This document shows, piece after piece, positions 541 through 39,446 of a stretch of DNA of 64,000 nt. Below the pieces are notes generated by a model that saw nothing but the letters and a program-made list of their open reading frames with translations, had not been told where the DNA came from and ran no database searches. Within the stretch, counting starts at the first letter, position 1; each line of letters starts with the position of its first letter. Made by a program: the position numbers and the translations under genes. Location: positions 1 to 64,000 of the forward strand of contig NZ_LYBV02000031.1 in NCBI RefSeq assembly GCF_001660705.2. Direction: 5' to 3'. The DNA is from Saccharicrinis aurantiacus (GTDB lineage: Bacteria; Bacteroidota; Bacteroidia; Bacteroidales; Marinilabiliaceae).

Positions 541-1125
541 CTCAATAGTAGTTAAAACTATGCACTTTAGTGCATCTCGCTTTTAGCTTCTAAAAATGTA
601 TCTTTGTTATATGGTACAAAGAACTAATGGTCATACGGTTTCAGAAATGACTGCTCACATAGTTTGGTCAACAAAATATCGCTATAAAATACTTCAAGGT
701 GACATCAAAGTTCGTTGTCGGTCATTGCTAATTCAAATCTGCGAGGCCGAAGATGTTATCATTCAAAAGGGAGTTGTCTCATCTGACCATATTCACATGC
801 ATATCAATTACCGTCCCTCTCAGAATATAAGTGAGTTGGTAAAAAAGTTCAAAGGAAGAACATCTAGAAAGCTACAGCAAGAGTTTCCAGCCTTAGGTAA
901 AAAGTATTGGGGTCGTCACTTTTGGGCCATTGGTTTTGGGTGCTGGAGTTCAGGTAATATTACAGATGAAATGGTAGATGCATATTTGGAACATCACCGA
1001 AAACCAAATGATCAAGATGAATCCAATTTTATATTGGAATAGTTGAGAAACGAGCCAGAGAATGACTTTCAGTCATTCTGTTTAACGCAAACCTATGGAC
1101 TTTCAGTCCATAGTGGTTTAGTCCA
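541..1125 (+). mobile_element. IS200/IS605-type insertion element with subterminal hairpins
   Basis: The element consists of a Y1 HUH transposase gene flanked by short hairpins typical of single-strand transposing IS200 elements. The left-end hairpin is ATGCAC-TTTA-GTGCAT at 560-575. The right end has two hairpins, at 1059-1079 (AATGAC...GTCATT) and 1093-1113 (CTATGGAC...GTCCATAG). No target duplication is expected for this family and none is seen. The boundaries are inferred from where the Abi_2 reading frame stops and resumes, and are uncertain by about 15 bases on each side. Confidence 0.75.
596..1042 (+). CDS. tnpA: IS200-like transposase (Y1 HUH family, TnpA)
   Basis: The 148-residue protein has the length and motifs of IS200/IS605 TnpA, a Y1 single-strand transposase. 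'HIVWSTKYRYKIL' near the start is the usual first strand, 'SSDHIHMHI' carries the metal-binding HUH motif, and 'MVDAYLEHH' near the C-terminus supplies the likely nucleophilic tyrosine. A second in-frame ATG at 611 (before 'VQRTNG') may be the true start. The gene has no frameshift and looks intact. It sits inside the decayed Abi_2 gene in the opposite orientation to it. Confidence 0.85.
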   Translation: MYLCYMVQRTNGHTVSEMTAHIVWSTKYRYKILQGDIKVRCRSLLIQICEAEDVIIQKGVVSSDHIHMHINYRPSQNISELVKKFKGRTSRKLQQEFPALGKKYWGRHFWAIGFGCWSSGNITDEMVDAYLEHHRKPNDQDESNFILE

Positions 1126-2657: not shown

Positions 2658-3437
2658 TTAGGTGTTGTATACCTCTATAGCATTTCTAGCATGTATTTTA
2701 CCAATTCTTATTAATTCTCTAGCTTTATTAAAATTGAATATACTATAACTACTTCCTGGTAGTTCAATAACTAAATCAGGTTTATACTTCTCAATATTTA
2801 ATTGGATAATCTGTTGTACCATTACTGTTAAAGATTTCATTAATATATTTTGCTTACCTAGAGCAGAATTAATTTCAGAATACTTATTTATAGCACCAGC
2901 TATACAAGCTATAATAATATCACCTTCTGTTCGCTTAACATGATTAATAGGAAGAGGATTTATAATACCTCCATCTATTAATCTTTTAAAATTATATTCA
3001 TAAGGTATAAAAATTAAAGGTAATGAAATTGATGCACGTATTGCATTATGTAAACTCCCCTCCTTAAAAACAAATTCTTTATTATTATTGATATCCGTCG
3101 TCACAATCGAAAGAGGTAAAGGTAAATCTTCAATAGCAACATCAGGAACAATTTTGCTAAAAATACGCATTACTTTGTTTCCTTTAATAATACCCTGTCG
3201 AGAAAAACTGAAATCAACTAGGTCCATAAATCGGTGCTTGTTTAGTACTAACATAAGTTCATTACAAGCTTCTATATTACCATAAGCGTATGCCGCGCCA
3301 ATTAATGCACCCATTGAACTTCCTGCAATTGCACTTATCTTAAATCCTGCATTAACTATCTCCTCTATAGCTCCAATATGACCAAACCCTCTTACTCCTC
3401 CAGTAGAAAGTACTAAAGCAACTTTCTTTTTACTCAT
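2658..3437 (-). CDS. Patatin-like phospholipase (RssA/NTE type)
   Basis: This predicted serine lipid hydrolase has 259 residues when started at the ATG at 3437. A longer frame begins at a TTG at 3473, but that would overlap the preceding gene's end and is less likely. The patatin Ser-Asp dyad is visible: the glycine-rich oxyanion stretch 'STGGVRGFGHIG' (residues 11-22), the nucleophile motif G-S-S-M-G (Ser41) and D-G-G (Asp155). No signal peptide is seen, so it is probably cytoplasmic or peripherally membrane-bound. It is the last gene of the NRPS/RND cluster, about 40 bases after the pump gene. Its role there is unclear; it could trim an acylated product or act on membrane lipids. Confidence 0.85.
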   Translation of the reverse strand: MSKKKVALVLSTGGVRGFGHIGAIEEIVNAGFKISAIAGSSMGALIGAAYAYGNIEACNELMLVLNKHRFMDLVDFSFSRQGIIKGNKVMRIFSKIVPDVAIEDLPLPLSIVTTDINNNKEFVFKEGSLHNAIRASISLPLIFIPYEYNFKRLIDGGIINPLPINHVKRTEGDIIIACIAGAINKYSEINSALGKQNILMKSLTVMVQQIIQLNIEKYKPDLVIELPGSSYSIFNFNKARELIRIGKIHARNAIEVYNT

Positions 3438-3476
3438 AATTAACTTATTTTTATTTAAATCCTGTATAGGCAACCT

Positions 3477-6400
3477 CTATAAATTAGGAGGAAACAACTT
3501 GTACATAATTGGTGTTACTATTCGTGAAAACATTGTTGAGGTAATTAACCCTCCAATAATTACTAATGCCAAGGGAGAATACAAAGGACTAAACTTTATA
3601 ACTAAAGGTATTAACCCTACAATTGCTGTCACAGCTGTAAATAAAATAGGAACAAACCTTACTTCTCCTGCAAGCAATATAGCTTTATCTAAAGCATGAC
3701 CTTCGCTTCTTAACTGATTTGTAAAATCTACCAATAAAATTGAGTTTTTAATTTCAATCCCTATCAACGCAATAAACCCAATTACAGCGACAAATGATAA
3801 AGGTAGATCAGCTATATACAAAAGAAAGATAGCTCCAATAATACCTAGTGGTATTACAGATAAAACAATAATTAAACTTCTAAAATCCCCAAACTCCAAT
3901 ATTAATATACCCAAAAATATAAATCCACATATTATAAGAATGGAACTAAACCCTTCAAATGAATCCTTAGTATTTTCAACCTCGCCGGCCATTTTAAAAT
4001 GATAATTCTCGGGGAGTTCAAGTTTTTTTAAAGACGACTTTATAGTCTTATTTACATCATTTGGCATAAATCCATCATGAATATAAGCTGTAATAGTTGT
4101 AAATCTATTTTTATCTAAATGATTAATTACAGGAAAAGAACGAACTAATTCTATTTCACAAATTGCACTTAGTGGAATGAATTCACCATATCTAGTGCCA
4201 ATATATATATTGGTTAAAGTTGAATATGTGGCTTTCTTTTCTTTTATTGAGCTAAGCCGTATCTTATATTCATACCCATCCTCCGCTGTAATTGTACCAA
4301 GAGTTAACCCAGATACAGCTAGGCGCAATGTTTTATTAATATCATATGTAGAAATACCCAACAGTGAAGCTACTTCCTTATTTACCTTGAATTGAATCTC
4401 AGTTTTTGATTCATTAATAGAGTTAATTACATGAGTAGTGCCCTTTACTTCACCTATAATTTGCTCAAAATTCATAGATATTTTTTTAAGACTATCTAGG
4501 TTATCTCCAAAAATTCGAACAGCAACTGGAGCTTCCAAAACTGAACCCTGCTCAAAATCCTTTACAGTAATATCTGCATTAGGAATACTGTCTAAATCTT
4601 TTTGTAATTGCTTTATAATTTGTGTTTTTCTTTTTGTGGAAACATCTTTGAGAAGCTGTACAAATATTTGGGAATAATTTTCTGCAGTTTCTAATTGCAT
4701 TTCATTATAATATATTCGAGGATTTCCTCGTCCGATATTTGTAGAGTAATATTTAACTTCTTTATTACTCGATAATATATTCTCAACTTGACGTACAATC
4801 TGATCTGTTTCATTTATATTACTAGCTGATCCTGATTTTATATTGATAGAAAATTGTGGTTTCTCTGATTTTGGAAACAATCTAAAACCTATTTTATAAG
4901 CAAGAAATAGGGAACCTATAAAAAGTACACCTGTCAAAAGTAACACTCGGATAGGATGCTTAAGAGACTTCATTAATATTTTACTGTATGTAAAGTGAAT
5001 CCCTTTTTCCATCAACTTGAGAAGCTTGTTAGATTTTGATTCGTCTTTACTTTTGAGAAGTAATGTTGACAGAAAAGGGACAATAGTCAATGAAACTAAT
5101 AAAGAAGCAAAAACGGTGGACATAATTGCTATAGGTAAACTTTTAATAAATTCACCAGACTCACCAGGCATAAAAGTTAAAGGAACAAAACAAACTATCA
5201 AAATAGCAGTACACCCTATTATTGCTTTCGTAATCTGTTTTGTTGCTTTAATAGCCGCAACATCTTTGTTATAACCACCTCTTAACCAACGTTCTATATT
5301 CTCAACGACAATTATATTGTCATCTACAACGAGACCTAATGTCATAACAAAACCAACAATACTTAATTGATTTAAGGTGTAGCCAAAAAAACTTAGAAAT
5401 GCTATACCAATTGAAAGAGAAATAGGGATAGAAAGCATTACTACAAATGATGCTCTAAAACCTAACGGTAACAATGTTATCATAACAAGTGAGATTGCAA
5501 AAATAAAATCAATTCCTAATCTATTCAATCTTTTAGAAACATTTTGTGCTTGATCAAAATTCTGAATAAGTTCTATATCTGGAGGTAACTTTTGTTTATA
5601 GTTAGATATAATATCATTATATTCTTCACTTACATCAATTATATTTTTATTGGCTTTTAAACCTGCTGTTAGAAAAACAGATCTTTCCCCATTATGCCTA
5701 CATATATGCTTAGCTGGAGCATCCTCATATTTTATTGTTGCAACATCTTTTAATCTAATAAAATTTTCTTTTGAACTACTAATTATTACATTCTCTATAT
5801 CCTCCATAGTATGGAGATTGCCAGATGATAAGACACTAAATTGATTCATTCCCATATTTACACTTCCTGCTGGAATGTTGATATTCTCAGATTGAACAAT
5901 TTGAATTATCTGACTTATTTGCAGCTTAAGTTGGGTAATTAGCTTGTAATTAAGAGAGATATTTATTATTTGATTAGGAATACCCCAAACTTTAACATTT
6001 TTCAAACTCTTAATGTTATCTAATTCATTTTTAAGATCATCGGCATAGTTTCTAAGATCTCTAAATGACCTATCTTCTGACAGAAAAGCTAACTGAATTA
6101 CATTAACATCAGAGGGTGCTACTTTCCTAATTTCAATATCATGAATATCTTGAGGAAGATCCTTCTTTAAGGCATCAATTTCGGTTATTAATTCCTGTTT
6201 TTTTTTATCATAATCAGCCTCAAAATTAAACTGAACTCTTATCAGGGCATGTCCATTATATATATTTGATCTAATTTGCTTTATCTCATCTAATTCATTG
6301 ATGCGTTTTTCAATAGGTTCTACCACTAGTTTCTCCATATCAGTTGTAGAAGTGCCTGGATATAATATTACTATTGGGAATATTCTTGCCTGAAATTCAG

Positions 6401-6512
6401 GATCTTCAGATCTTGGCATGGTTAGTAAGGAGTTTATTCCTATAACTATAACCATAACAAGCATTAAAAGAGAAAATTGCCAGTATTTGACAGAAAAGTG
6501 GGTTATATTCAT
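3477..6512 (-). CDS. RND efflux pump inner-membrane permease (AcrB-like)
   Basis: The 1011-residue protein is a full-length resistance-nodulation-division transporter, using the proton gradient to export small molecules through a tripartite envelope complex. The N-terminal membrane segment is followed by 'LLTMPRSEDPEF' and a periplasmic porter domain. The proton-relay aspartates are present in 'LGLVVDDNIIVVENI', and the matching lysine in 'IGIEIKNSILLVDF'. Two repeats of six-helix clusters can be read. It directly follows an adaptor lipoprotein (36-base gap) and an outer-membrane factor, giving a complete pump. Its place at the end of the NRPS operon suggests it exports the product or gives self-resistance. 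The substrate is not readable from sequence. Confidence 0.93.
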   Translation of the reverse strand: MNITHFSVKYWQFSLLMLVMVIVIGINSLLTMPRSEDPEFQARIFPIVILYPGTSTTDMEKLVVEPIEKRINELDEIKQIRSNIYNGHALIRVQFNFEADYDKKKQELITEIDALKKDLPQDIHDIEIRKVAPSDVNVIQLAFLSEDRSFRDLRNYADDLKNELDNIKSLKNVKVWGIPNQIINISLNYKLITQLKLQISQIIQIVQSENINIPAGSVNMGMNQFSVLSSGNLHTMEDIENVIISSSKENFIRLKDVATIKYEDAPAKHICRHNGERSVFLTAGLKANKNIIDVSEEYNDIISNYKQKLPPDIELIQNFDQAQNVSKRLNRLGIDFIFAISLVMITLLPLGFRASFVVMLSIPISLSIGIAFLSFFGYTLNQLSIVGFVMTLGLVVDDNIIVVENIERWLRGGYNKDVAAIKATKQITKAIIGCTAILIVCFVPLTFMPGESGEFIKSLPIAIMSTVFASLLVSLTIVPFLSTLLLKSKDESKSNKLLKLMEKGIHFTYSKILMKSLKHPIRVLLLTGVLFIGSLFLAYKIGFRLFPKSEKPQFSINIKSGSASNINETDQIVRQVENILSSNKEVKYYSTNIGRGNPRIYYNEMQLETAENYSQIFVQLLKDVSTKRKTQIIKQLQKDLDSIPNADITVKDFEQGSVLEAPVAVRIFGDNLDSLKKISMNFEQIIGEVKGTTHVINSINESKTEIQFKVNKEVASLLGISTYDINKTLRLAVSGLTLGTITAEDGYEYKIRLSSIKEKKATYSTLTNIYIGTRYGEFIPLSAICEIELVRSFPVINHLDKNRFTTITAYIHDGFMPNDVNKTIKSSLKKLELPENYHFKMAGEVENTKDSFEGFSSILIICGFIFLGILILEFGDFRSLIIVLSVIPLGIIGAIFLLYIADLPLSFVAVIGFIALIGIEIKNSILLVDFTNQLRSEGHALDKAILLAGEVRFVPILFTAVTAIVGLIPLVIKFSPLYSPLALVIIGGLITSTMFSRIVTPIMYKLFPPNL

Positions 6513-6548
6513 ATGTGTTAATTTTTCCTTATATTACAATTAGTTTTA

Positions 6549-7577
6549 CTAGCGTATTAAGATTCTGGAATTTTTATTTAAAAATGCACCTCCTCTTGCA
6601 ACAATTCTATCATTGTTACATATTCCCTTTGTTATATATAGAGTATCATTTTTTATATAATCAATAGAAACTTTTAATTTTCTAATCTTTTTTGAATTAT
6701 TGGGGTCTAAGGAATATAAGAATCCTGTCTTACCTTCACCCCCCATAAGTGCATCTGCAGAAACAGTATAATATTCTTTCTTTCGATTAGGAAATATTGT
6801 TAATTGTGCTTTAAAGCCATGGATTATCATTTCATTTTCAATTTCATCTAATACAACTTCAACTTTATATAAACCTGTAATTCTATCGGGGTAGGAACCA
6901 ATCATATCAATTTTCCCTATAAAACTCTTATCTTCATATACATCAAATACAACCTTCACTGAATCATCATGCTGAATATTGATTATATCTTTCTCGCTTA
7001 AAAAAGTATGAATACATAATCTATCATCTTCAGATGCAAAAATAATTACAGGGGAAAAAGGAGAAATAACATCACCTTCTTCAACCATTTTCGTCACTAT
7101 TTTCCCGTCATATGGTGCAATAATAAATGATTTTTTCATTTTTTTTTGTGCAATAAGAACATTCTGTTTTGATAAATCATTTAAGGATTTCATAGTTTCT
7201 AGATATTCACTGGTTATTGCAGAATCATTAATTAGAACCAACGCTCTTTCATAGTTATGTTTACTTTTATCATAATCTATCAAAGTCTTGTTTAGTTGAT
7301 ATTTCATCTCTTCTGAATTAATTCTAGCACATATACCACCATGTTTTATTAAGGTTCCTTCTTTATAAATTTCATCAATTTGTCCTCCTATCTGAAAGGA
7401 AAGTTTACTTTCTTTTTGAGCCATTACAGTTCCATATGATACAATTGGAAAAGACCTATTTACTTTTCTAATCTCGGATAGCTCAACCATAACACTGTCC
7501 TTTTCTTGTAAACTTTTATGCTTACATCCTATAACTAAAAAGAATAAGATTAAGATACTACATAACTTCATTACCAT
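6549..7577 (-). CDS. RND periplasmic adaptor (membrane-fusion lipoprotein)
   Basis: This 342-residue membrane-fusion protein bridges the RND permease and the outer-membrane channel. The N-terminus is a lipoprotein signal with lipobox 'LVIGC' (Cys about residue 18), so the protein should be lipid-anchored. It has the expected order: a beta-barrel/lipoyl strand 'KLSFQIGGQI', a short alpha-hairpin rich in K/E and N (about residues 90-145), the second lipoyl half 'KSFIIAPYDGKIV', and a beta-barrel with 'VDFVYEDKSF'-like strands. The stop lies 36 bases before the pump gene, and the start is 3 bases after the outer-membrane factor's stop, so the three are co-translated. Confidence 0.88.
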   Translation of the reverse strand: MVMKLCSILILFFLVIGCKHKSLQEKDSVMVELSEIRKVNRSFPIVSYGTVMAQKESKLSFQIGGQIDEIYKEGTLIKHGGICARINSEEMKYQLNKTLIDYDKSKHNYERALVLINDSAITSEYLETMKSLNDLSKQNVLIAQKKMKKSFIIAPYDGKIVTKMVEEGDVISPFSPVIIFASEDDRLCIHTFLSEKDIINIQHDDSVKVVFDVYEDKSFIGKIDMIGSYPDRITGLYKVEVVLDEIENEMIIHGFKAQLTIFPNRKKEYYTVSADALMGGEGKTGFLYSLDPNNSKKIRKLKVSIDYIKNDTLYITKGICNNDRIVARGGAFLNKNSRILIR

Positions 7578-7580
7578 AAA

Positions 7581-8975
7581 TTATAGCTTTTCTACCTTAC
7601 TTAGGTATTCCGTATATTTAATTAATATTAAAAACTTAGATATTGAAAGACTTGTTTGTGCAGATATATATTTATTTTGCTTATCAATCATTTCAACCCA
7701 AAGCAGCTTACCACTTGAATATTGTGTTAATGCTATTTCGTAAGACTCTTTAGTATTCCTTAATAAGGCAAGAGTACTTTGATACTTCTGCAATAACATA
7801 TGGAGTGACTCTTTGCTACTCATAATATCTAAATCCACTTTGTTTTTAATTGATATTAATTCATTATTGGCTTGTTCCTGCTCATACTTAGTGTATCGTA
7901 TTTTTGAATTCTTTATATTTCCAGAATAGAGATTCCAAACTAAATTTAGTCTTGCAAAATTAAAGAACCTATCTTGATTAAATTGATACCCATACCCCTG
8001 AAATCCGATTCTATTTTCCAAATAAATCTTTGGTAAATAAGCATCTCTTTTATTCATTTCAATAATAATTCCCTTTAAATTAACAACCTCTCTCTGAAGT
8101 ATAATATTTGAATTTTTTGCTGGCAAATATTCTGATTCAAGTTTAACTAAAGAATCAGGTTCAAAATTAAATAACGTACTATCTATTACAATAGGTTCAA
8201 TTAGATCTCTATTAAGTAATTGGTTAAAATAAGCTCTGCACATATTAATATTTTCATCAACATCTGCCATACGATTCTTTATTAATTCAGACTCATAATC
8301 GACATCATTTATCGCTAGTTTTGTTTTGACACCTGCTTGATATTGTTTTAGTGTAATATGAGAAAGTTCCTTTAGTGTTGCCATATTTAGATTGAAGATA
8401 TTTCTAGTTTGGATCAATAAGAGATATCTGTAATATGCAATGAAAATTTCTTGCTTAAGATTACATAAATAAGACTCATACTGAATGCCTTTTATTCTAT
8501 TCTCACTTTCTAATATCTTATGCTTATAATGGATATTTGTATTTAACAAAGCTTGTTCTAGAAATAACTCATTATTTGCAAAATTATTAGGAACAAATTT
8601 TTCAACAACGTTATCAATATGAGGATATTTGTTTGTCCCTGTAATTTGATTCATCGCATCATACACAGGATTTATTAAATCTCCAGCAGGTACCACAATT
8701 TCTCGTCCTCCATATGATAATAAGTAGGAGCTTCTGAAGCTAATTTTAGGAAGATATAACCCCTTAGCCTGGTTAAGTCTCTCAACTGATTTCTTAATAT
8801 CAATTTCTTTATTTTTTAAATCAACATTATTAGCAATAGCTAAACTATAGTAGTCGTTTAAAATATCCGATTTTTGAGCAGTAACATTACTATACAATAA
8901 ATATAGCATTATAATAACTATACTCCTATGTCTAACAATTACTTTTTTAGGTAAAGCATCATTAATGATATCCAT
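7581..8975 (-). CDS. TolC-family outer-membrane efflux protein
   Basis: The 464-residue protein is an outer-membrane factor, the exit duct of the tripartite pump. A hydrophobic N-terminal segment ('IVIIMLYLLYSNVTAQ') is a likely signal peptide ending around residue 33. Two long helical repeats typical of TolC follow, with the characteristic 'RLNQAKGLYLPKISF' after the first helix and 'QYSSGKLLWVEMIDKQNKY' in the second half. Its start overlaps the end of the LuxE-like gene by 14 bases, which ties the pump to the biosynthetic genes. Confidence 0.88.
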   Translation of the reverse strand: MDIINDALPKKVIVRHRSIVIIMLYLLYSNVTAQKSDILNDYYSLAIANNVDLKNKEIDIKKSVERLNQAKGLYLPKISFRSSYLLSYGGREIVVPAGDLINPVYDAMNQITGTNKYPHIDNVVEKFVPNNFANNELFLEQALLNTNIHYKHKILESENRIKGIQYESYLCNLKQEIFIAYYRYLLLIQTRNIFNLNMATLKELSHITLKQYQAGVKTKLAINDVDYESELIKNRMADVDENINMCRAYFNQLLNRDLIEPIVIDSTLFNFEPDSLVKLESEYLPAKNSNIILQREVVNLKGIIIEMNKRDAYLPKIYLENRIGFQGYGYQFNQDRFFNFARLNLVWNLYSGNIKNSKIRYTKYEQEQANNELISIKNKVDLDIMSSKESLHMLLQKYQSTLALLRNTKESYEIALTQYSSGKLLWVEMIDKQNKYISAQTSLSISKFLILIKYTEYLSKVEKL

Positions 8976-10149
8976 AATTTAGTTTTTTTGTAGTACCGGA
9001 TATATATTGATCCAAAGTGATCGCACAGTTCATTTGATAATTTTTATCTTTTTTCCCCAACACATCAATCACGGCTCCTGACCTTCCACATTTACAATTA
9101 ACACTATTACTTACAAGACCAATATCTTTCGTCTCTAAAAAACATGGATAGGTTAAGACGGTAGGGTCTAGTACACATATTGTTCCTTCTTTTCCTTCGT
9201 CTTTACATTTTCCTTTGCCATTAGCTGCCATAATATATGTATGTACATGTGATGGAACATGTTTTAAATTCTGATCACATTCAATAGATATTTTATTAGT
9301 TTCAATAAATCCATAAATATCACGGCACTGTTCCTTACCTGCATTCAGTGATCGCATGCATTTCCTTACGAAAGCATCTTTAAGTATAAGTTCTCCATTT
9401 GCTTTATTCCATCCACCTATCGTTACAACACGATCCTGACTTTTAAACATGTGAGTTCTATTATTTGCATTCAAGTATTCCATATAATAGTTTATAATAA
9501 ATGGAGGCCCTACAAAATAAATCGGAAGTTTATCAATCCATTTATTTACAAATTCCTCTGTTTCCTTGAAACGAAAATCATTATTTTTATTCATTACAAA
9601 GAAGCGATCTGCATATATTGCACCAAGTACGCCTAAACCCCTCAGCATACCAAGGTTAGGGGCATCTACAATTGGAGGTGTAAAGTATACAACAATTGGA
9701 GACGCATCAAACCTGTTATCTAACATTTCAATAAAGAGTGAGGAAATACTTGATATTGCTAACTCATTTGTAAATGAATCTCGGTATGCTTTGGTATGTA
9801 CTCCATTCGAACCTGTTACGTGAAATTCTACCTGTTTCGTTGATTTTGGGAGAGTCATTATTTCTTCCATACGTGAGTCAGAAAAATAATCTACAGGAAT
9901 TAATGGAATATTATGAATATCATCATAACTAACAATATCCTCGGGACTAAATTTATTTGCTTCGCATAGACTTTTATAAAACTCATTTTGATGATAATGA
10001 AAATTAAATACCTTCCTTATAGCATCAAACTGAATTGCCTTTTGCTTTTCAACAGGATAATAAAAAGCATAAGTACATGTATTTACAGTCTTAGCTAACT
10101 CTTCAATTTCGTATTTAAATAGTAAATCTCTTAATTCTTTAGTAATCAT
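8962..10149 (-). CDS. LuxE-like acyl-protein synthetase (acyl-adenylating enzyme)
   Basis: The 395-residue protein resembles LuxE acyl-protein synthetases and the wider PaaK-like adenylate-forming group, which activate a carboxylic acid with ATP and hold it as a thioester. The phosphate-binding motif 'VTGSNGVHTKAYRD' lies at about residues 111-124. C-terminally there is a C-K-C-G-R-S-G motif (Cys352, Cys354) and a late cysteine at 375 ('QMNCAITLDQYI'), close to where LuxE carries its acyl-accepting cysteine. Fatty-acid reductase partner genes (LuxC/LuxD) are absent. Because it sits between the NRPS/thioesterase and the pump and overlaps the next gene by 14 bases, I infer that it activates a starter acid and passes it to the free carrier protein. 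This role is not demonstrated by sequence alone. Confidence 0.75.
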   Translation of the reverse strand: MITKELRDLLFKYEIEELAKTVNTCTYAFYYPVEKQKAIQFDAIRKVFNFHYHQNEFYKSLCEANKFSPEDIVSYDDIHNIPLIPVDYFSDSRMEEIMTLPKSTKQVEFHVTGSNGVHTKAYRDSFTNELAISSISSLFIEMLDNRFDASPIVVYFTPPIVDAPNLGMLRGLGVLGAIYADRFFVMNKNNDFRFKETEEFVNKWIDKLPIYFVGPPFIINYYMEYLNANNRTHMFKSQDRVVTIGGWNKANGELILKDAFVRKCMRSLNAGKEQCRDIYGFIETNKISIECDQNLKHVPSHVHTYIMAANGKGKCKDEGKEGTICVLDPTVLTYPCFLETKDIGLVSNSVNCKCGRSGAVIDVLGKKDKNYQMNCAITLDQYISGTTKKLNYGYH

Positions 10150-10334
10150 GTTATTATATTCTTATTAATAGGATTAATTAACATCTTGAACCGCAGATAC
10201 TTTAAATAATGCTTTTTACAAGATCCAAATTAACTAACTCATTAGGTATGTAACCTAATTGGTTCAAATGTTTAAAATTGATATTCTTTATATAATCTTT
10301 CAGAGGTTTAATTCCTCGAGCTTGTTCTCTAGGA
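10150..10334 (-). other. Gap between thioesterase and LuxE-like gene with a start-less reading frame
   Basis: The otherwise tightly packed operon has a 185-base gap here. On the minus strand one frame stays open for about 45 codons from just after the thioesterase stop, reading 'LDPREQARGIKPLKDY' and 'HLNQLGYIPNELVNLDL' before its stop. It contains no ATG and begins directly after a TAA. The composition looks protein-like, so it may be the tail of a deleted gene. I do not recognise the family. Confidence 0.35.
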
Positions 10335-11030
10335 TCAAGTTAATACCACCCTACTCTCAATATGCTCTAATATCTTTTGATACTCTGTGTTTATAAAAAA
10401 ATGTCCTCCTGAAAACTTTACATACTCACAGTCACAATTTGTATAATTACTCCATTTGAAGAACTCATTTTGATCTACACTATTATCGGCATCACCATAG
10501 AGAACACTTATATTACAGTTTGCCTTCCTATAATTAGGAACGTCATAAGTTTCATATATCTCAAAGTCTGCTCGCAATTGAGGTAACAAGTATGCAAGGA
10601 TTTCCTTATTGTTATAAATCTCAGTAGGAATACCTTGATAGCTATATATCTTATCTATAAAATCTTTATCCGACAGATAACTTATACGTTCAAAATTAGA
10701 ATTAGGGGCTTCACGTGCTATAATTACAATACGCTCTGGTTCTTTATAACCATTTGTCATCAGCCTATTATAAATTTCAAATGCAATCAATCCTCCCATA
10801 CTAAAACCTAATAGTACGTATGGTTCTAAACCTATTTGAAGAGATACTATGGAGTACATATCTTCAATTAAAGATGAGAAATTAGGATAAAATGATTCAT
10901 CAACCCTTGTAGTTCTACCTTTGAGTTCTATTGGAATGATTTCAATATTTGAATTAACATTTTTAGTCCATTTAGTAAACATATTAGCAGAGCCACCTGC
11001 ACAAGGGAAACAAAATAGTTTAACTACCAT
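10335..11030 (-). CDS. Type II thioesterase (GrsT-like alpha/beta hydrolase)
   Basis: The 231-residue protein belongs to the external thioesterases that accompany NRPS and PKS systems, either clearing mis-primed carrier domains or releasing product. The opening 'LFCFPCAGGSANMFTKW' is the family signature, the nucleophile is Ser77 in G-F-S-M-G-G, an Asp lies in 'YGDADNSVD', and His210 is in G-G-H-F-F. A GTG at 11033 directly precedes the ATG at 11030; the ATG is preferred. The start falls immediately after the NRPS stop, so translation is coupled. Because the NRPS has no thioesterase domain of its own, this enzyme may do the release. Confidence 0.9.
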   Translation of the reverse strand: MVVKLFCFPCAGGSANMFTKWTKNVNSNIEIIPIELKGRTTRVDESFYPNFSSLIEDMYSIVSLQIGLEPYVLLGFSMGGLIAFEIYNRLMTNGYKEPERIVIIAREAPNSNFERISYLSDKDFIDKIYSYQGIPTEIYNNKEILAYLLPQLRADFEIYETYDVPNYRKANCNISVLYGDADNSVDQNEFFKWSNYTNCDCEYVKFSGGHFFINTEYQKILEHIESRVVLT

Positions 11031-11032
11031 CA

Positions 11033-14000
11033 CTATCGCTTTCTATTATGATTACTACTAATTTCTTCAAATGAAATTGGGTTACTAGTTTTAAGTCCTA
11101 TTTCCATGCTATGTAAGAATTTCTCACCATTCATAAGCTTAAAGTAATCTTTAATTTTATCAAAATCCATTTCTCCAATAGAGCAAATACCGAGACTATT
11201 TTCCTCACAAACTTGAGTAATTGTGCCAATCATTATGCCGGAATCAATTATAGCATAATAATATCCATGTCCTCCATAAATAGGCATACTAACTGTAGGG
11301 TTGAATAAATAGTAAGCAGTAATGGCAGAACTCTTAAATATCTCTTTATTCTTGTAAAGTGATGACTTTTCATCAATCACACACGAATTAACTAACTTTA
11401 AAGAGTGAGTAGGCGGATGATAATAGTATAAACCTTCCTTAAGGTTTTCCACTCTATCTTTTTTTACATTCAGATAAACATCTATCGGATATAAACCACC
11501 AGCACTGGCATAATTATAAGTGTACTTTTCCCCAATATTATTTTGTTTAAATGTTGCAAGTATCTTTGATAACGCATCAAACGATATTAATTGCGATTCA
11601 TCAAAATTTCTATATGATCTACGTTTTGATATACCATTTAAGGATCTCTGCTTTAATGGTATATTTTTATTACCATCTACAACTGTCCTTTCCATTATAT
11701 GTTTCTTGAATACACTATATTTATGAGGATTAATTAATAATTCTTGGTCTAGAGTATCCCTTGAGAATCCTCTTAAAGGTTTGAATAGATCACTCCAATT
11801 TGGTAATTCGTTTATCAGTATACCCACAGATATAAATGTATCTATCAGCTCACTCACCTTGTCTGTATCCTCAGAGTTAAAGTTATTGCATAAGTCATCA
11901 ATACATATACCTTCCTGTGTTAGGAAATAGAACTCTGGAAACAGATTAATTCCCTGAAAATAGGAATTATTAATATATAGTTTATTATTATCTTTTCTCC
12001 ATTGACAAGTAGGGTTCCAGAAGTATATCATATTTACTGGATCTTTTGTTGATGAACAACCTTTTACTCCATGACCAATATTTGTTTTTATATAATTAGT
12101 GATTCCGGATATTGTAGGATTTTTGTAAAAATATTCAACTGGTAATTTTATATTATACACATTTTCAACTCCCACAATAACGCGATAGGCTTGCAGTGAA
12201 TCACCTCCCAAATCAAAAAAGGATTCGTCTGTATCAAAATCACTAGTTTCTAATAACTCACTCCATATCTCAATAAGCTTATTTTCAGTAGATCCGAGAT
12301 TTCGTAAAGTAGCACCTTGTTTTTTTTCTTTTGTGATATTAATTTTTGGCAACCTATTTTTATCAACCTTTTGGTTTTGAGTTAACGGCAATTCTTCTAA
12401 AAAAAGATACGAAAGAGGAATCATATATTGAGGTAGTCTTTTAGAAAGATTAGTGTTAAGATATTCTTGACTGACCTCTATTTTTTCATTCTCATCCTTA
12501 ACGATATAAGCTGCAATAGCTTTATGTCCAGATGTTTGTTCAAAAACAACGGCTATGGCCTCCAACACACCTACTATATTTCTTAATATTGATTCTATTT
12601 CACCCAATTCAATACGATGCCCCTTTATCTTTACTTGACTATCTTTCCTTCCTTTAAATTCAATCCATCCTTTATTATGCATAATCCCATAATCACCTGT
12701 TCTATATAAGTTTCCTAAAGTAGGGTGTTTAATAAATGCATATTCTGTCTTTTCCTTTTCACCTATATAACCCTCAGTAACACCTGTACCTCCAATGAAT
12801 ATCTCAGCCTCACACCCTAAAGGAGCTATATCAAGATTTCTATCTAAAACATACATTTGTTGATTACTTAATGGATAGCCATAAGGTATGCTTTTCCACA
12901 TTGGATCAACACAATCTATAGGATAGTAAATAGACCAAATAGCACCCTCTGTTGCACCTCCAAGGCTATATTGCTTTGAATTCGGGAAATAATTTCTTAA
13001 TTTGCTAGGTAAGCTCGTTGGAATCCAATCTCCACTTAATAATATATTTCTCATAGATTCATATTGTACAAATCTTTTTTCGCTATCAATCAAATGCTGA
13101 ACTAAAAGATTCACAACAGATGGTACTGAGTTCCAGAAGGTTATCTGGTATTTTGATAAGATATTTGTGATATTCTCTACATCAAGAATATTAGAAACCA
13201 TATATAATGTTGCTCCAACACTAAAAGTCCCGAAAATATCATAAATAGATAGATCAAATCCCATAGAAGAAAGACCAATTACTCTATCATTAGAATCAAT
13301 ACTAAATCTTTGATTAATATCTAATATAGTGTTTACAGCAGATTTATGACTAACCATCACGCCTTTGGGATTTCCTGTAGAACCTGATGTGAAAATAATA
13401 TAAGCCAATTTACTTGATTGTGAATAAGCCTCTTTCATAACTCCATGAAATCTGTCAATATTATGCTCTGCATAATATGTTAGATATAAGCATACATCAA
13501 TATTGCACTTATCAAGAATATATTCAATTCGTTCCTCAGGTAATGAAGGCTCAATTGGAACATAAGCTGCCCCTGCTTTTAGAATACCTAACACATTAAT
13601 CATTGTATCACAATGTCGATTAACTTTTACACCGACACAATCTCCTGACTTAACCCCTATGTCAATCAGGTGATTAGCTAGCTTATTGCTTCTGTCTTCA
13701 AGCTCAGCATATGTATATTTAGTTTCAGAACAAACGATACAGATCTTATCAGGAAACTTAACAACTTGCTCTGAAAATAATTGATTCAATGTCTTATCTG
13801 GGAGTTTCAATTTTGTGCTATTGTATTTTTCTATAAAATCAATATCTTTCTTAGGTACCGTTGGTTTAATAATTTCTTTTGTTTCTATAAAATTATATAT
13901 TAAAGATTTATAGTTTTCGAACATATTGGTAATAGTTCTTTCATCAAACAGATTATCAACATAATCCCATATAACTGACATCTTATTTTCAATATTTGAG

Positions 14001-15172
14001 ACCTGATTATCTAATAATACCTGCGGAGTTTGACTTAAACCATAAACAAACTTACCTAGACCTTCATTCTTATTTAATTCGTCAATAGCTTTATCATATA
14101 GCATACTAGTAAAGACAACAGGCGTTAATGCTTTTGTTCCTAGGTTCCGTTTCTTTGATATTTCTCTTAAGAGACTTACCCCATCATAATGTCTATGACT
14201 CAGCAATCTTATTATCTCAGTTTGGTAATGTTTTAATTTTTCTCGTGTAGAACCTTTAAAGTTTTTATCAAATTCCATTAATAAAACAGAAGTAAAATCA
14301 CCCATTATCTTATCGACATTTTCATGAAATGGATATCGATTAAAAACGGTTATATTGATAGTATATCTCAAGTTAGATGACCAAAGATTTAGCACTTCTG
14401 CATAAAGAACACAGAGTACTGTAGTTGGCGTAACATTTAGCAACTTTGATACATCCTTAAATTTACCCCATTCTTCTTCGGTGAAAATATATTGCAATCT
14501 TTTAAAAGTAGGCTTAGATATATCAGAAATGGATTTTTTTAATGGTATATCAGGCCCTAAAGAAAGAGTATCAATCCGTTTTAAATGAAAGGCTTTCGCT
14601 CTTTCATATTTTTTTGATAGCTGTAACTCCTCATAGGTTGATATATATTCTTTAAATGAATAATCTAACTTAGGAAGACTATCATCATCATGATAATATT
14701 TCAAGAGCTCTGACTCGAACAACCGAAGACTAAATCCATCTCCTATTAACATATCATAATTAAAAAATATATAATTTTTAGTTGCTGACAATTTAAGTGC
14801 CTTCAGTTCAAAAAGAGGCCATATTGTTGGATCAAATACCCTGTGAGATAACTTATCTCTTTCTTCCTTTATAAGATATTCTTGATTCTCAGTATCAAAT
14901 GTACTTACATCCACATACTCTATATGATATTTAGGGTAGTCCTCTTTTACAACCTGTTGTTGAGTATCTAATATAAATACAGTGCGGAGGATTGGGTGGC
15001 GAGCTATTATTCTATTTAGAGCACAGTTAAGCTTTGTAATATCTAAAGAGCTTTCAATTTCAGAGTAAAGGTGTGTCCCAACTCCTCCAAGTTCCATATT
15101 TTCATTACGCCCAATGAGATATGCATTCTGAATCTCTGTAACTCCAAATGGGCTAGGTGTATTTTGTGTCAT
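11033..15172 (-). CDS. One-module NRPS: Cy - A(Cys) - PCP - SagB-type oxidase
   Basis: The 1379-residue synthetase is predicted to build a thiazole from cysteine. Domain 1 (residues 1-430) is a heterocyclization domain: the condensation HHxxxDG motif is replaced by D140-xxxx-D145-xx-S148 ('DMLIGDGFS'), and it opens with 'AYLIGR'. Domain 2 (about 455-945) is an adenylation domain with 'FTSGSTGNPKG' and 'YRTGDYG'. Aligned on GrsA by eye, its pocket residues are D640 L641 Y644 N681 L711 S713 L737 I745 W746 K935, the known cysteine code. Domain 3 is a peptidyl carrier with Ser992 in L-G-G-D-S. After a linker, residues 1180-1365 form a SagB-type FMN dehydrogenase ('RRSYRNF', 'SAGGLYP'), which in related systems oxidises thiazoline to thiazole. 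There is no thioesterase or reductase domain. A free carrier gene precedes it by 10 bases. Confidence 0.92.
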   Translation of the reverse strand: MTQNTPSPFGVTEIQNAYLIGRNENMELGGVGTHLYSEIESSLDITKLNCALNRIIARHPILRTVFILDTQQQVVKEDYPKYHIEYVDVSTFDTENQEYLIKEERDKLSHRVFDPTIWPLFELKALKLSATKNYIFFNYDMLIGDGFSLRLFESELLKYYHDDDSLPKLDYSFKEYISTYEELQLSKKYERAKAFHLKRIDTLSLGPDIPLKKSISDISKPTFKRLQYIFTEEEWGKFKDVSKLLNVTPTTVLCVLYAEVLNLWSSNLRYTINITVFNRYPFHENVDKIMGDFTSVLLMEFDKNFKGSTREKLKHYQTEIIRLLSHRHYDGVSLLREISKKRNLGTKALTPVVFTSMLYDKAIDELNKNEGLGKFVYGLSQTPQVLLDNQVSNIENKMSVIWDYVDNLFDERTITNMFENYKSLIYNFIETKEIIKPTVPKKDIDFIEKYNSTKLKLPDKTLNQLFSEQVVKFPDKICIVCSETKYTYAELEDRSNKLANHLIDIGVKSGDCVGVKVNRHCDTMINVLGILKAGAAYVPIEPSLPEERIEYILDKCNIDVCLYLTYYAEHNIDRFHGVMKEAYSQSSKLAYIIFTSGSTGNPKGVMVSHKSAVNTILDINQRFSIDSNDRVIGLSSMGFDLSIYDIFGTFSVGATLYMVSNILDVENITNILSKYQITFWNSVPSVVNLLVQHLIDSEKRFVQYESMRNILLSGDWIPTSLPSKLRNYFPNSKQYSLGGATEGAIWSIYYPIDCVDPMWKSIPYGYPLSNQQMYVLDRNLDIAPLGCEAEIFIGGTGVTEGYIGEKEKTEYAFIKHPTLGNLYRTGDYGIMHNKGWIEFKGRKDSQVKIKGHRIELGEIESILRNIVGVLEAIAVVFEQTSGHKAIAAYIVKDENEKIEVSQEYLNTNLSKRLPQYMIPLSYLFLEELPLTQNQKVDKNRLPKINITKEKKQGATLRNLGSTENKLIEIWSELLETSDFDTDESFFDLGGDSLQAYRVIVGVENVYNIKLPVEYFYKNPTISGITNYIKTNIGHGVKGCSSTKDPVNMIYFWNPTCQWRKDNNKLYINNSYFQGINLFPEFYFLTQEGICIDDLCNNFNSEDTDKVSELIDTFISVGILINELPNWSDLFKPLRGFSRDTLDQELLINPHKYSVFKKHIMERTVVDGNKNIPLKQRSLNGISKRRSYRNFDESQLISFDALSKILATFKQNNIGEKYTYNYASAGGLYPIDVYLNVKKDRVENLKEGLYYYHPPTHSLKLVNSCVIDEKSSLYKNKEIFKSSAITAYYLFNPTVSMPIYGGHGYYYAIIDSGIMIGTITQVCEENSLGICSIGEMDFDKIKDYFKLMNGEKFLHSMEIGLKTSNPISFEEISSNHNRKR

Positions 15173-15182
15173 AAACAGTATA

Positions 15183-15470
15183 TTACTTTAATTTATTTTT
15201 AATTAAAGCTGCTAATAATTCAACCGTATTAGCAGCTGTAACATCTTCTAGTGGAATTTCAATACTATACAGCTCTTCTATTTCTTGACATATTTCCATA
15301 ATACTTAATGAATCTGCTCCAAGTTCCATTAAATCTGTAGTAATATCAATTGTATCTTCTCCCAATATTGTACAACAAATTTCAGAAAACTTAAGTTCTA
15401 GATCTGAATAATGGTCATTGGCTCTTCCTCTAACATTGAGAATTGTTCCATCTAATAAATCTAATTTCAT
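15183..15470 (-). CDS. Free-standing acyl/peptidyl carrier protein
   Basis: The 95-residue protein is a carrier, with the phosphopantetheine-attachment serine at 54 in 'ELGADSLSIMEI' and the usual acidic helix 2 after it. It is the first gene of the NRPS cluster, ending 10 bases before the synthetase. As the synthetase begins with a heterocyclization domain and has no loading module, this protein is the natural donor of the starter acyl group. The LuxE-like enzyme downstream is a candidate for charging it. No phosphopantetheinyl transferase gene is visible in the window, so a housekeeping one would be needed. Confidence 0.88.
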   Translation of the reverse strand: MKLDLLDGTILNVRGRANDHYSDLELKFSEICCTILGEDTIDITTDLMELGADSLSIMEICQEIEELYSIEIPLEDVTAANTVELLAALIKNKLK

Positions 15471-17517: not shown

Positions 17518-18219
17518 TTAACCTCCAGTATTAATATTCTCAATCTGTTTAAAAAGCCCTAGAATAATTTCCGTGGCACCTTCTTCTGAAACATAAGGTA
17601 ATGCACTTTCTATACCCTCTGTCAGATTAGGATTCATCAACAAATTAGTACATTCATTCTTCAAATAACTTTGTACAGTTTGACTTGAATTTAGGATATC
17701 AACGATTAGTTCACTGCAATTCTCCAAGATGTAAATAATGTCTTCAAAGTCATGGCTTTGTCGCAAATCATCTCCACCCCTTCCTTTGTGCGCCTCAAAT
17801 TTAGCAGCTAAATAGTATGTAGCGGAAAATATAAAAACTTCAGTCCCATTAGGTAGTGACTGTGCTATTTTATTCTCAATATCCTCGTCGTACCATCTAT
17901 TGGTAAATCCAAGTACGTCAGAATCAGAAGGCATAATATCTACTAGAATATTCTTGTACACCCATCGGCAAATTGGAGCTCCTTTTGAATTATCATTTTT
18001 AAAACCTTTAGCTCTTAAATTATCTTCTAATTTTGCATGTGCGGTTCTTGAACTTAATTCAATTACACAATCAACATCTAGTGTTGGTCTTATTTCTGAT
18101 AATTCAGGATTACTTGCATATAACTCAGCAACGGCAACACCAACAAATACCACTTCATTTTTCAAGTCGTCTAAACCTATGGCTACGTCTTGTAGCATTT
18201 GAATGTTTCTACTAAGCAT
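17518..18219 (-). CDS. Nucleotidyltransferase, AbiEii/toxin-like
   Basis: The 233-residue protein looks like a DNA-polymerase-beta-fold nucleotidyltransferase of the kind found as toxin in AbiE-type systems. A 'FVGVAVAELYA' loop replaces the usual G-G-x-A/S, followed by 'RPTLDVDCVIEL', in which D-V-D is the expected metal-binding pair. A later 'VDIMPSDSDVLGF' may supply the third acid. It begins 8 bases inside the end of the upstream winged-helix reading frame, the compact coupling expected for an antitoxin-toxin pair. The substrate (tRNA, protein or nucleotide) cannot be told. The pairing with the winged-helix protein is inferred from order and overlap. Confidence 0.72.
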   Translation of the reverse strand: MLSRNIQMLQDVAIGLDDLKNEVVFVGVAVAELYASNPELSEIRPTLDVDCVIELSSRTAHAKLEDNLRAKGFKNDNSKGAPICRWVYKNILVDIMPSDSDVLGFTNRWYDEDIENKIAQSLPNGTEVFIFSATYYLAAKFEAHKGRGGDDLRQSHDFEDIIYILENCSELIVDILNSSQTVQSYLKNECTNLLMNPNLTEGIESALPYVSEEGATEIILGLFKQIENINTGG

Positions 18220-18733
18220 GCTTTAATCGTTTTTCAAGTTCTTCTTTGGCAATGTTTACTTCTCTTACTCTTCCTACACGTATAGTATCCACAAGTGCTA
18301 ACAGTTCATAAAATAATTTATCATCCAATACTATCCGAGGTATTGATTTAAATAGAGGTTCTATAGCCTGTCCTCTATGTGTGCCTTTTGCATTAGCCCA
18401 TACATAAATATGATTTCCGCTAGATATGTGTTCGCTAATGGGTGGGGCAGAATGAGCGGTTGGAACTCCTTTAACAATGGCTCCTGGTTGAGTTGGAAAT
18501 ACATACCTTAAACCATAGCAGAGAAACTCAAAGAAAGAATTGATATTAACTTTGCGTTTTTTTGAGTCAATTAACCCTGCTACCTTACATCTATTTAAAA
18601 CTTCGGATATCTCAGAAGGGCTTATCTTGAGAGATTGTGCTAAATCTGAATTGTACCAATCGTCATGTTCTAAAGCAATTATTTTTAATAACACTACGAT
18701 ATCTTGCGGGCGCATCCCATTATGTTTTTTCAT
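18212..18733 (-). CDS. Possible separate winged-helix antitoxin-like protein (internal start)
   Basis: ATG at 18733 gives 173 residues from 'MKKHNGM' to the end of the fused frame. A TATATTTG box on the minus strand (18767-18774) followed by tandem TTCGCGA sits 15-40 bases upstream, suggesting independent transcription and possible autoregulation. The C-terminus overlaps the nucleotidyltransferase start by 8 bases. This is an alternative product of the same locus, not an extra gene. Confidence 0.5.
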   Translation of the reverse strand: MKKHNGMRPQDIVVLLKIIALEHDDWYNSDLAQSLKISPSEISEVLNRCKVAGLIDSKKRKVNINSFFEFLCYGLRYVFPTQPGAIVKGVPTAHSAPPISEHISSGNHIYVWANAKGTHRGQAIEPLFKSIPRIVLDDKLFYELLALVDTIRVGRVREVNIAKEELEKRLKHA

Positions 18734-19441
18734 ATCATGTATTTTTGATTCGCGATTCGCGAATTGCAAATATATGATATTTAAACTGAAAAAAAATTTG
18801 TTATAAATGTCCAGAGCTGAAAGTTTGCCGTAACCCTGCTTTTCCTTGTACATACAATCAGTATCAAGGTTGATTATATTTGTGTTTGATACAATTATTT
18901 TTTCACAATTCTCTACTGTAATAGGGGTATGACCATGGATAATGGTTTTACCCAATAATACAGGGTTATTATATGTGCTTTTTCGACTCCAAAGTAACTG
19001 ATGAGTATCCTCAAAAGGATTGATGATATTATCATTCAGTCCAGCATGAACGAATATAAAATCATCTTCAATATGATAATACTTTAATGATTTTATAAAA
19101 TCAATATAAATAGTATCAAATTCATCTGGTTCATTAACCCCAAAGCTTTGAAGGGTTGTATCTCCACCATTGTAATTCCATGTATCCTTCTGCTTAGAAT
19201 CAGTCAGTGCTTTAAGTAGTTGCTCTTCATGATTTCCAATAAGTGGTACAATATTAAATCCATCAGAAATTAACTGCATAATATAATCGAGTACCTCTTT
19301 ACTTTGTGATCCACGATCTATATAGTCACCAAGTAGCACTAATTTATCATGCTGCGTTAGTTTAAGCCTATCTTCAATTAAGATACAAAGCTCTTTGTAA
19401 CACCCGTGAATGTCTCTTATACTTATTAATCTAATTATCAT
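18212..19441 (-). CDS. PPP-type phosphatase fused in frame to a winged-helix protein
   Basis: This one open frame of 409 residues joins two proteins. Residues 1-210 form a PPP/ApaH-like metallophosphatase: 'IRDIHGCYKEL' (D-x-H kept, first G replaced by R), 'LLGDYIDRGSQSKEV', 'LIGNHEEQLL', 'FVHAGLN' and 'IIHGHTPITV'. Residues 237-409 form a DNA-binding protein beginning 'MKKHNGMRPQDIVVLLKI', with a winged helix ('SDLAQSLKISPSEISEVLNRC') and a conserved C-terminal part, of the type encoded upstream of AbiEii-like toxins. The joining stretch ('YNKFFFSLNIIYLQFANRES') is low in quality as protein and its DNA contains a promoter-like box and repeated TTCGCGA, so it appears to be read-through of a former intergenic region. 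The fused protein, the two parts made separately, or both, are possible. Confidence 0.75.
   Translation of the reverse strand: MIIRLISIRDIHGCYKELCILIEDRLKLTQHDKLVLLGDYIDRGSQSKEVLDYIMQLISDGFNIVPLIGNHEEQLLKALTDSKQKDTWNYNGGDTTLQSFGVNEPDEFDTIYIDFIKSLKYYHIEDDFIFVHAGLNDNIINPFEDTHQLLWSRKSTYNNPVLLGKTIIHGHTPITVENCEKIIVSNTNIINLDTDCMYKEKQGYGKLSALDIYNKFFFSLNIIYLQFANRESKIHDMKKHNGMRPQDIVVLLKIIALEHDDWYNSDLAQSLKISPSEISEVLNRCKVAGLIDSKKRKVNINSFFEFLCYGLRYVFPTQPGAIVKGVPTAHSAPPISEHISSGNHIYVWANAKGTHRGQAIEPLFKSIPRIVLDDKLFYELLALVDTIRVGRVREVNIAKEELEKRLKHA
18749..18774 (-). promoter_or_regulatory. Promoter and operator inside the phosphatase/winged-helix junction
   Basis: The minus strand reads TATATTTG (18774-18767), a match to the Bacteroidota -7 consensus TAnnTTTG. 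Directly after it, at the expected transcription start, lie two tandem TTCGCGA heptamers (18749-18755 and 18756-18762 on the plus strand); the second forms the palindrome TTCGCGAA. The position 16 bases upstream of an ATG is that of an autoregulated antitoxin promoter. Confidence 0.55.
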
Positions 19442-23767: not shown

Positions 23768-25006
23768 TTATAATAAACAATTAGCAAGCTCTTTCTTTTT
23801 CTCAGAAGGAATAATACTCTTAATATAATTTTGGGTTGTTATTATGCTTTTATGTCCTAGCATTTCTCTTAATTGCTCTATTGATCCTCCACTAGTAATA
23901 ATAACATAGGCAAAAGTATGACGAGCAACATAAGTTGTAACATCCTTTTTAATTCCTACTTTTCTGCAAACATTCCGCATGTGAGTATTTGTAGTAGCTG
24001 TAAATTGTTTTAATTTCTTTTTTCTTTCATTAGCAGATGATTCATTATTAATGAATGGGAAGATATAATTATCAGGATTCTTATTCTGATTGCCCCAACG
24101 ATCTATCACTTCTCTCATAAAATTATTAATCCGAACGTCAATAATTATAGGATCATCTTTCGTAGTTCGATTAGTCTTTTCTCGTTTAAATGTGAAGTAA
24201 TCATTTTCTAGCTGTTTATATTTTAAACTTAGAATATCCTTAAAATTCATTCCGTTTGCATAATAACTGAATAACCAAAAGTCTCGTGAACGCATTTCAG
24301 TACTATTGTCCAATGCCTTGTAATCATCAATTAATCTTTTTTCTTTTAAGACAAGAAAAATCTTCCCTTTCTTGCCTGTTGGGATTTTATATTCTTTTCT
24401 AGTAAATGGATATTGCTCCTTTAATATTACTTTATCATTAATTGCTTGGTTCATGAGAGCTCTTAATGGTCTAAGGTATATCCCAACTGTAGTAATACTT
24501 TTACCGTTAGAAAGCATCCATTTTTCGTAATTATTAAGGAAATTTTGTGTTACATCTTCAAAATATAACCGTTTCTTAAATTTCATCAGTGAGGATTTAG
24601 AGTCCTTGTAGTTGTCTCTAGTACCAATTCTCTCTTCGCTTGCTAAAAGCTCTATTTGTCGATCATAAGCTTCGTATACATCCATTGAATTGTCTGGTGA
24701 ATTGAAAAATAAATCTTCAAACTGATGAAAAGAAAAAGAAGGAATCGAATTTCCAACTTTCTCAGCTTCTTCAACTATATCTAATAATCTTTTGAGCATT
24801 TTCTTTAGTTTTCCCTTTACGTTTATTGAATGCATGGTTTCGTATTCTTCCTTGCTTAGGTCAATAGAGGTTCCGTAATATTGTCTTTTTCTATTATAAG
24901 TTACTCTTAGTTTAATAGGATATTTACCGTTCTTTTTCTCTCTTTTAGGATCTAGCCAATAGGCAAAAGTTGCTTTTTTTTTCATCAGTAAATTTATTTC
25001 GTACAC
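23768..25006 (-). CDS. Tyrosine recombinase/integrase (Bacteroidota island type)
   Basis: The 412-residue protein is a phage-type integrase with an N-terminal arm-binding domain ('TFAYWLDPKREKKNGKYPI'), a SAM-like core-binding domain (about 105-205) and a catalytic domain. Visible catalytic residues are the second Arg in 'YVARHTFA', His in 'LGHKSI' and the nucleophilic Tyr in 'TTQNYI'. The first Arg position is Asn in 'ANGMNFKDILSLK', as is common in this clade by recollection. The gene lies 135 bases from a 3' tRNA-Met fragment and points away from it, which fits site-specific insertion of the DNA to its left. An alternative start is the ATG eight codons in (before 'KKKATFAYW'). Confidence 0.88.
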   Translation of the reverse strand: MYEINLLMKKKATFAYWLDPKREKKNGKYPIKLRVTYNRKRQYYGTSIDLSKEEYETMHSINVKGKLKKMLKRLLDIVEEAEKVGNSIPSFSFHQFEDLFFNSPDNSMDVYEAYDRQIELLASEERIGTRDNYKDSKSSLMKFKKRLYFEDVTQNFLNNYEKWMLSNGKSITTVGIYLRPLRALMNQAINDKVILKEQYPFTRKEYKIPTGKKGKIFLVLKEKRLIDDYKALDNSTEMRSRDFWLFSYYANGMNFKDILSLKYKQLENDYFTFKREKTNRTTKDDPIIIDVRINNFMREVIDRWGNQNKNPDNYIFPFINNESSANERKKKLKQFTATTNTHMRNVCRKVGIKKDVTTYVARHTFAYVIITSGGSIEQLREMLGHKSIITTQNYIKSIIPSEKKKELANCLL

Positions 25007-25195: not shown

Positions 25196-25233
25196 ATAAA
25201 GCACTTACAATTAATTTTGTAGGTGCTTTTTTA
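25196..25233 (+). terminator. Terminator after the tRNA fragment (copy 1)
   Basis: The hairpin pairs AAAGCACTTACAA with TTGTAGGTGCTTT around a short loop and ends in a T run. It is presumably the original terminator of the tRNA gene. A near-identical copy lies at 26404. Confidence 0.75.
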
Positions 25234-25385
25234 TTTTGTTCATATTTTCTTACACTCCTTTTGTTTACTTCTCATAACAACATGTTGTTCCTCATGGCTT
25301 TAAGTATAACCCAAGTAAATGTCATAAGTTCTAATTTATATTATTGTACTTTTACGGATTATTATAAAAAAGAGAATGAATTGTT

Positions 25386-39431: not shown

Positions 39432-39446
39432 ATATTTTGTTTGTGT

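Follow-up and report, generated by a model that had tools for sequence, protein, structure and literature searches.

The closest described relatives of the gene set examined here are the bacillamide genes BmdA/BmdB/BmdC (PMC8795117; PDB 7ly4, 7ly7) and a Lactobacillus plasmid set (pKB290-3, pBQSH01) whose genes are called nrsB, nrsC, nrsA and nrsF, with no product given alongside the names in the passages of PMC3609814 that list them. In the bacillamide system, PMC8795117 reports that BmdC acts on the thiazoline in its bound state, oxidizing it on the non-ribosomal peptide synthetase (NRPS). We compared these systems with a minus-strand run of eight genes from Saccharicrinis aurantiacus, located in the first 64 kb (hereafter the window) of contig NZ_LYBV02000031.1 (C25 in our numbering; 317,548 bases of a 5.88 Mb genome). 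Four of its genes, within 6.5 kb, form the biosynthetic core and encode a free carrier, an NRPS, a stand-alone thioesterase and a LuxE-family acyl-protein synthetase. We judge it slightly better than an even chance that the run specifies a one-module thiazole assembly line loaded by LuxE, with thioesterase release and export by a resistance-nodulation-division (RND) pump.

The NRPS (1379 aa; 11033..15172) combines Condensation, AMP-binding, PP-binding, Nitroreductase and AMP-binding_C Pfam domains in one protein. These correspond approximately to a heterocyclization (Cy) domain (residues 1–440), a cysteine adenylation (A) domain (445–945) and a peptidyl carrier protein (PCP; 960–1030, GGDS at 989), followed by an RRE-like part and flavin mononucleotide (FMN) oxidase at about residues 1048–1363. 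Among PDB chain sequences, BmdB was the best match for residues 5–1024 (835 bits, E 8.8e-250), and residues 1048–1363 matched BmdC (210 bits, E 5.3e-61). The A-domain code, motif-read at nine positions without a structure, is DLYNLSLIW, which we take to be a cysteine code; the same residues were seen by eye in BmdB. The window NRPS and BmdB also have in common the Cy residues DxxxxD (140–145), Thr355 and Asp388, and PMC9547227 presents the Asp-Thr dyad of Cy domains as the putative catalytic pair. With BmdC numbering transferred via a Laceyella homologue, the FMN-binding or FMN-facing residues (RRSxR, an Asn, the MPxY Tyr and the Gly in the CxxG stretch) are all kept in the window oxidase. Five aligned oxidases keep them, except that the Lactobacillus row has one R-to-K exchange and other changes. 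The first-pass annotation had proposed this domain order and cysteine specificity, and both are borne out by Pfam, the BmdB match and the code; the loss of Cy or oxidase catalytic residues that it raised as a threat to its proposal was not seen on alignment. Because of the BmdB/BmdC homology, the kept residues and the action of BmdC on an NRPS-bound thiazoline, formation of a Cys-derived thiazole by this NRPS is well supported and, judged by homology, very probable.

Likeness to bacillamide biosynthesis extends to the Cy-A(Cys)-PCP module and the BmdC-type oxidase with its RRE-like N-terminal part. In contrast, a Pfam scan of the eight operon proteins found no A1-PCP1 (Ala) loading module, terminal condensation (C) domain or Trp decarboxylase, and a bacillamide producer was rejected on these grounds. 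The window oxidase is fused after the PCP, and a free carrier, LuxE and thioesterase stand in place of the bacillamide parts. The Lactobacillus set comes closer in plan, with an oxidase, carrier-Cy-A-PCP, thioesterase and starter-type enzyme in a row. On the plasmids of Lactiplantibacillus plantarum (L027) and Levilactobacillus brevis KB290 (L052), genes for a phosphopantetheinyl transferase (PPTase), SagB/BmdC-type oxidase, NRPS, thioesterase and AMP-binding ligase are consecutive. The L027 NRPS reads carrier-Cy-A-PCP, its N-terminal carrier being one of two PP-binding stretches, and the ligase follows the thioesterase, the position held by LuxE in the window. Unlike the window, the Lactobacillus set has an AMP ligase rather than LuxE, a fused carrier and a separate oxidase; identities are 36% for the NRPS and 32% for the oxidase. 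The compact thiazole plan itself is therefore not new, since Lactobacillus plasmids have it with an AMP ligase. The exact gene set was found in no other genome sampled, and the plan is one that the nrs genes named in PMC3609814 already embody.

An NRPS tree placed the window protein in a six-row set with those of Halothermothrix (L022), Laceyella, Priestia endophytica, Lactiplantibacillus and a Clostridiaceae protein (support 100/99); which of these is closest to it is only loosely resolved (85/87, with long branches). On a Clostridiaceae plasmid (L026), a thioesterase, a PPTase, a Cy-A-PCP protein and a longer NRPS were found. Separately, a Klebsiella grimontii plasmid (L053, 9001–22113) contains long unannotated NRPS frames with Cy-like and oxidase-like stretches beside polyketide genes.

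The LuxE-family protein (395 aa; 8962..10149; PF04443, 1.4e-36) matched LuxE of PDB 7xc6 (7xc6_E) with 108.7 bits (E 3.2e-30). Its ATP-type motif is TGSNG (residue 112), compared with TGTSG in Priestia, SGTSG in a relative (G040) and SGTT/SSST-like sequences in the others of a nine-row alignment. Cys375 aligns with the C-terminal Cys of LuxE, which we take to be the acyl acceptor, and all 9 aligned rows have a Cys at this position. The usual partner of LuxE is LuxC (PF05893). Eight further LuxE loci were opened (L044, L045, L046, L047, L048, L049, L051 and the Priestia plasmid L025), and LuxC was near LuxE in all seven non-Priestia loci. It occupies two adjacent frames in L045, about 4.7 kb distant in L046 and about 2.3 kb away on the opposite strand in L051. 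The LuxE and LuxC operon of L046 (606–9351) also has carrier and radical-SAM-like genes, and the rest resembles, by eye, a citramalate/isopropylmalate-type chain-extension set. No tblastn match to LuxC was found in the window, and the only PF05893 match in the genome (24.6 bits, cut-off 21) belongs to an ordinary aldehyde dehydrogenase, which scores 445 bits with Aldedh. A LuxCE aldehyde system was rejected on this basis. The identity of this weak match, together with the confirmed LuxC labels elsewhere, slightly favors LuxE as the loading enzyme of a thiazole line.

The LuxE-LuxC systems of fatty acid reduction and the glycan LuxE blocks, for example those in Dickeya flagellar clusters (PMC7575072), share with the window the invariant C-terminal Cys and often include a carrier gene. 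The window differs in having no LuxC and a carrier unlike theirs. None of the open-license PubMed Central papers whose LuxE passages were examined links the enzyme to an NRPS; half of these passages concern Dickeya flagellar glycan clusters and half luminescence or reporter uses. No LuxE matches were found in phages. The nearest LuxE in the plasmid set by tblastn was that of Priestia (as much as 187 bits, against 93 for the second-best record), where, with 28% LuxE identity, the carrier gene overlaps the LuxE start. LuxC was absent there from the 22 annotated features in 19 kb and gave no tblastn match. The neighbors differ from those in the window, being genes for an FAD oxidoreductase, an IscU-like protein and a cysteine desulfurase, with no NRPS among them. 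The Priestia operon (5688–11616) comprises a split AMP-binding gene, FAD oxidoreductase, carrier, LuxE, IscU-like scaffold and cysteine desulfurase, and perhaps serves sulfur transfer to a carrier-bound acid.

The free carrier (95 aa; 15183..15470; PP-binding, 3.1e-14; phosphopantetheine Ser54 in GADS) is the proposed acid donor. Its likeness to each of ten carriers was scored by local alignment against 200 shuffles. The z score was 16.2 for the Halothermothrix L022 carrier that precedes Cy, 11.9 for the PCP of its own NRPS, 9.9 for the first Lactobacillus carrier and 9.3 for the Priestia carrier. It fell to 5.2 for a Laceyella BmdB carrier and 1.6 to 4.3 for five carriers of LuxE-LuxC loci. 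Because scores were highest with Cy-associated carriers, the window carrier fits a detached NRPS donor carrier. The genome has two PPTase matches. The presence of the carrier with no LuxC counts for loading by LuxE, as does the Priestia LuxE, which likewise overlaps a carrier gene with no annotated LuxC. The suggestion that LuxE is the likely starter activator and the free carrier the donor is supported by the kept acceptor Cys, the absence of a LuxC match in the window, the Cy-associated type of carrier and the Lactobacillus ligase at the place of LuxE. We consider LuxE-to-carrier loading somewhat more probable than not.

The remaining core gene encodes the thioesterase (232 aa; 10335..11033; PF00975, 2.3e-35), with GFSMG at 76 and GGHFF at 209. 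All four core parts had been predicted on the minus strand, and each is an open, Pfam-supported frame. The first-pass operon, 8962–15470, stands as a core yet stops too early, since the run continues to 2658. It proceeds through a TolC-type outer membrane efflux protein (7581..8975; PF02321), which overlaps LuxE by 14 bases, an RND periplasmic adaptor (6549..7577; TIGR01730, 127.6 bits, cut-off 94.9), an AcrB-family RND permease (3477..6512; PF00873, 8.6e-195) and a patatin-like protein with GSSMG and DGG (2658..3473; PF01734, 2.4e-25). Spacing from carrier to patatin is 10, -1, 185, -14, 3, 36 and 3 bases, and because of these short intergenic gaps the eight genes may be one 12.8-kb transcription unit. 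Promoter and terminator scanning gave nothing usable: 77 sigma-70-like sites were counted where shuffling gave a mean of 93.2, and 4 terminator-like sites where it gave 4.1, so neither exceeded chance, and TAnnTTTG occurred 115 times across the whole window against 99.0 expected. An open 45-codon stretch without a usual start codon lies between thioesterase and LuxE (10205–10340, minus strand); it was rejected as a hidden gene, since nothing in Pfam matched it up to E = 1.

From this layout we infer the following route. LuxE would adenylate a carboxylic acid with ATP, keep the acyl group on Cys375 and hand it on to the free carrier's phosphopantetheine. The A domain, as its code and homology support, would put cysteine on the PCP. 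By homology to reconstituted BmdB/BmdC and with their residues kept, the Cy domain would condense the acyl group on the carrier with cysteine on the PCP and cyclodehydrate the product to a thiazoline, which the fused BmdC-type FMN oxidase would convert to a thiazole on the PCP. Since the Pfam scan found no thioesterase, reductase or terminal C domain in the NRPS, release of a 2-substituted thiazole-4-carboxylic acid is assigned to the separate thioesterase, and the RND-TolC pump would expel the product. The patatin might, speculatively, provide a free fatty acid. The most specific form of this proposal, in which LuxE acts through its own Cys thioester as an NRPS starter gate feeding the carrier and the exported thiazoles are 2-alkylthiazole-4-carboxylates, is put forward tentatively, at a little under even chances.

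In a rival reading, the same line could take an aryl or short acid, for example a benzoate- or salicylate-like one, and yield a 2-aryl thiazole or siderophore-like product. Aryl-Cys heterocycles are common, TolC-type export fits a siderophore, and the starter pockets are unreadable from the present sequence data. Against this, LuxE is named for fatty acids, although the protein reaches 126 bits with the fatty acid-named model NCBIfam NF052244, far under its 550-bit cut-off, and none of the eight operon proteins is salicylate-type by Pfam. We therefore regard an aryl or short starter as possible but doubtful, and lean narrowly towards a fatty acid.

Alternatively, LuxE could act after assembly. 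The carrier would be charged by other means, such as acyl-ACP from fatty acid synthesis or a ligase encoded elsewhere, the thioesterase would free the thiazole acid, and LuxE would re-activate it for another acceptor. In bioluminescence LuxD is followed by LuxE, which provides the model, and here too the thioesterase and LuxE adjoin; the altered LuxE sequence and further AMP-binding matches in the genome are also in keeping with it. On the other hand, neither LuxC nor another acceptor gene lies alongside, the thioesterase belongs to PF00975, and the Lactobacillus order has a starter-type ligase, itself of putative role, at the LuxE position. Post-assembly action is unlikely on this balance. 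Less likely still, the run could be an acquired cluster that is decaying or silent and makes no product: it is rare in the lineage, with an altered ATP motif and a start-less stretch in the thioesterase-LuxE gap, but all eight frames are open, the checked motifs are present and spacing is tight apart from that one gap.

Loading by LuxE followed by thiazole formation thus remains the preferred reading, and several points weigh against it. We found no direct evidence for carrier charging by any LuxE. A carrier beside LuxE is alone no proof of loading, because LuxE-LuxC blocks also have a carrier and an AMP-binding gene: in L044, L045, L047 and L051, LuxE and LuxC share a continuous or near-continuous row with a carrier, a short-chain dehydrogenase and an AMP-binding gene (the gene families were checked for L044). 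Dickeya flagellar clusters described in PMC7575072 contain blocks of this kind. The TGSNG motif is a point of doubt, and the 185-base interval before LuxE is the sole wide gap in the run. Finally, no second genome with the full gene set was found among those sampled, which are a small part of existing genomes, so no conservation argument can be made.

Individual components were also rare in these samples. The Cy query at E up to 1e-25 matched 1 of 395 genomes of the phylum, its own, and at 1e-20 within the order 2 of 393, the second being weak (24% identity). Around the Halothermothrix genome, 4 of 378 genomes drawn, that genome included, matched at 1e-70. The LuxE query at 1e-3 matched 12 of 100 relatives including its own genome, with strong matches only in G017 and G040, and none of eight same-genus genomes. 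At 1e-15 it matched 3 of 395 genomes across the phylum, again including its own, while in the phylum to which Priestia endophytica belongs the count was 2 of 299. Of the four genomes with Cy matches at 1e-70, G902 has a Cy-A protein with the oxidase inside the A domain, adjoining acyltransferase and acyl-CoA dehydrogenase genes, and the two Cy places in G1155 are other NRPSs with no oxidase match. G904 has both Cy and LuxE, on separate contigs. A scan of genome contigs, limited to two peptide patterns, brought up 3 relatives, which says little about the collection.

The first-pass annotation had also placed the cluster on a tRNA-linked island, a proposal that was rejected. The sole tRNA of the window, tRNA-Leu (39445–39527), lies between an ABC gene and tig, and the order tatC, ABC, tRNA-Leu, tig, clpP, clpX is kept in all four same-genus regions read; recQ is present in three, the fourth stretch ending near there. 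No repeat of the tRNA-Leu ends was found within the window. A tyrosine recombinase (integrase; 23768–25006) lies 14 kb from the tRNA, with clpX, clpP, tig and others between; because of it, the cluster may have had a mobile origin by a non-tRNA route. Window proteins left of clpX had no match in the 9–11 kb beyond clpX of the four same-genus regions, so lineage-specific DNA starts somewhere left of clpX. GC content is 28–32% in the eight cluster genes and 30–40% in ten other window genes measured, which is at most weak support for foreign origin.

Other features were seen in the surrounding DNA. Of two adjacent proteins at 17518–19441 (minus strand), the first matches the PADLOC candidate defense model PDC-M21B (182.8 bits) and the second PDC-M21A (171.1 bits), with a calcineurin-like phosphoesterase domain in addition; this candidate defense pair lies beside the integrase region. 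By the integrase, an 80-base direct repeat (71%; 25198–25277 and 26407–26486), its first part terminator-like, flanks a gene for a pyridoxal phosphate enzyme (25386–26351) that has distant matches only, in one of eight same-genus genomes. An IS200-type transposase (596–1042, plus strand) lies near the contig end.

The probable thiazole line would lie in a bacterial group in which, among the genomes sampled, Cy domains are nearly absent. Its small size, with four biosynthetic genes in the core, eases in vitro rebuilding and product detection by mass spectrometry. If the proposed loading is true, it would be an unusual start for such an assembly line, with a logic unlike that of A domains or AMP ligases. 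An enzyme family that binds its acyl group covalently, and is familiar from aldehyde production, would then supply natural-product assembly lines as well.

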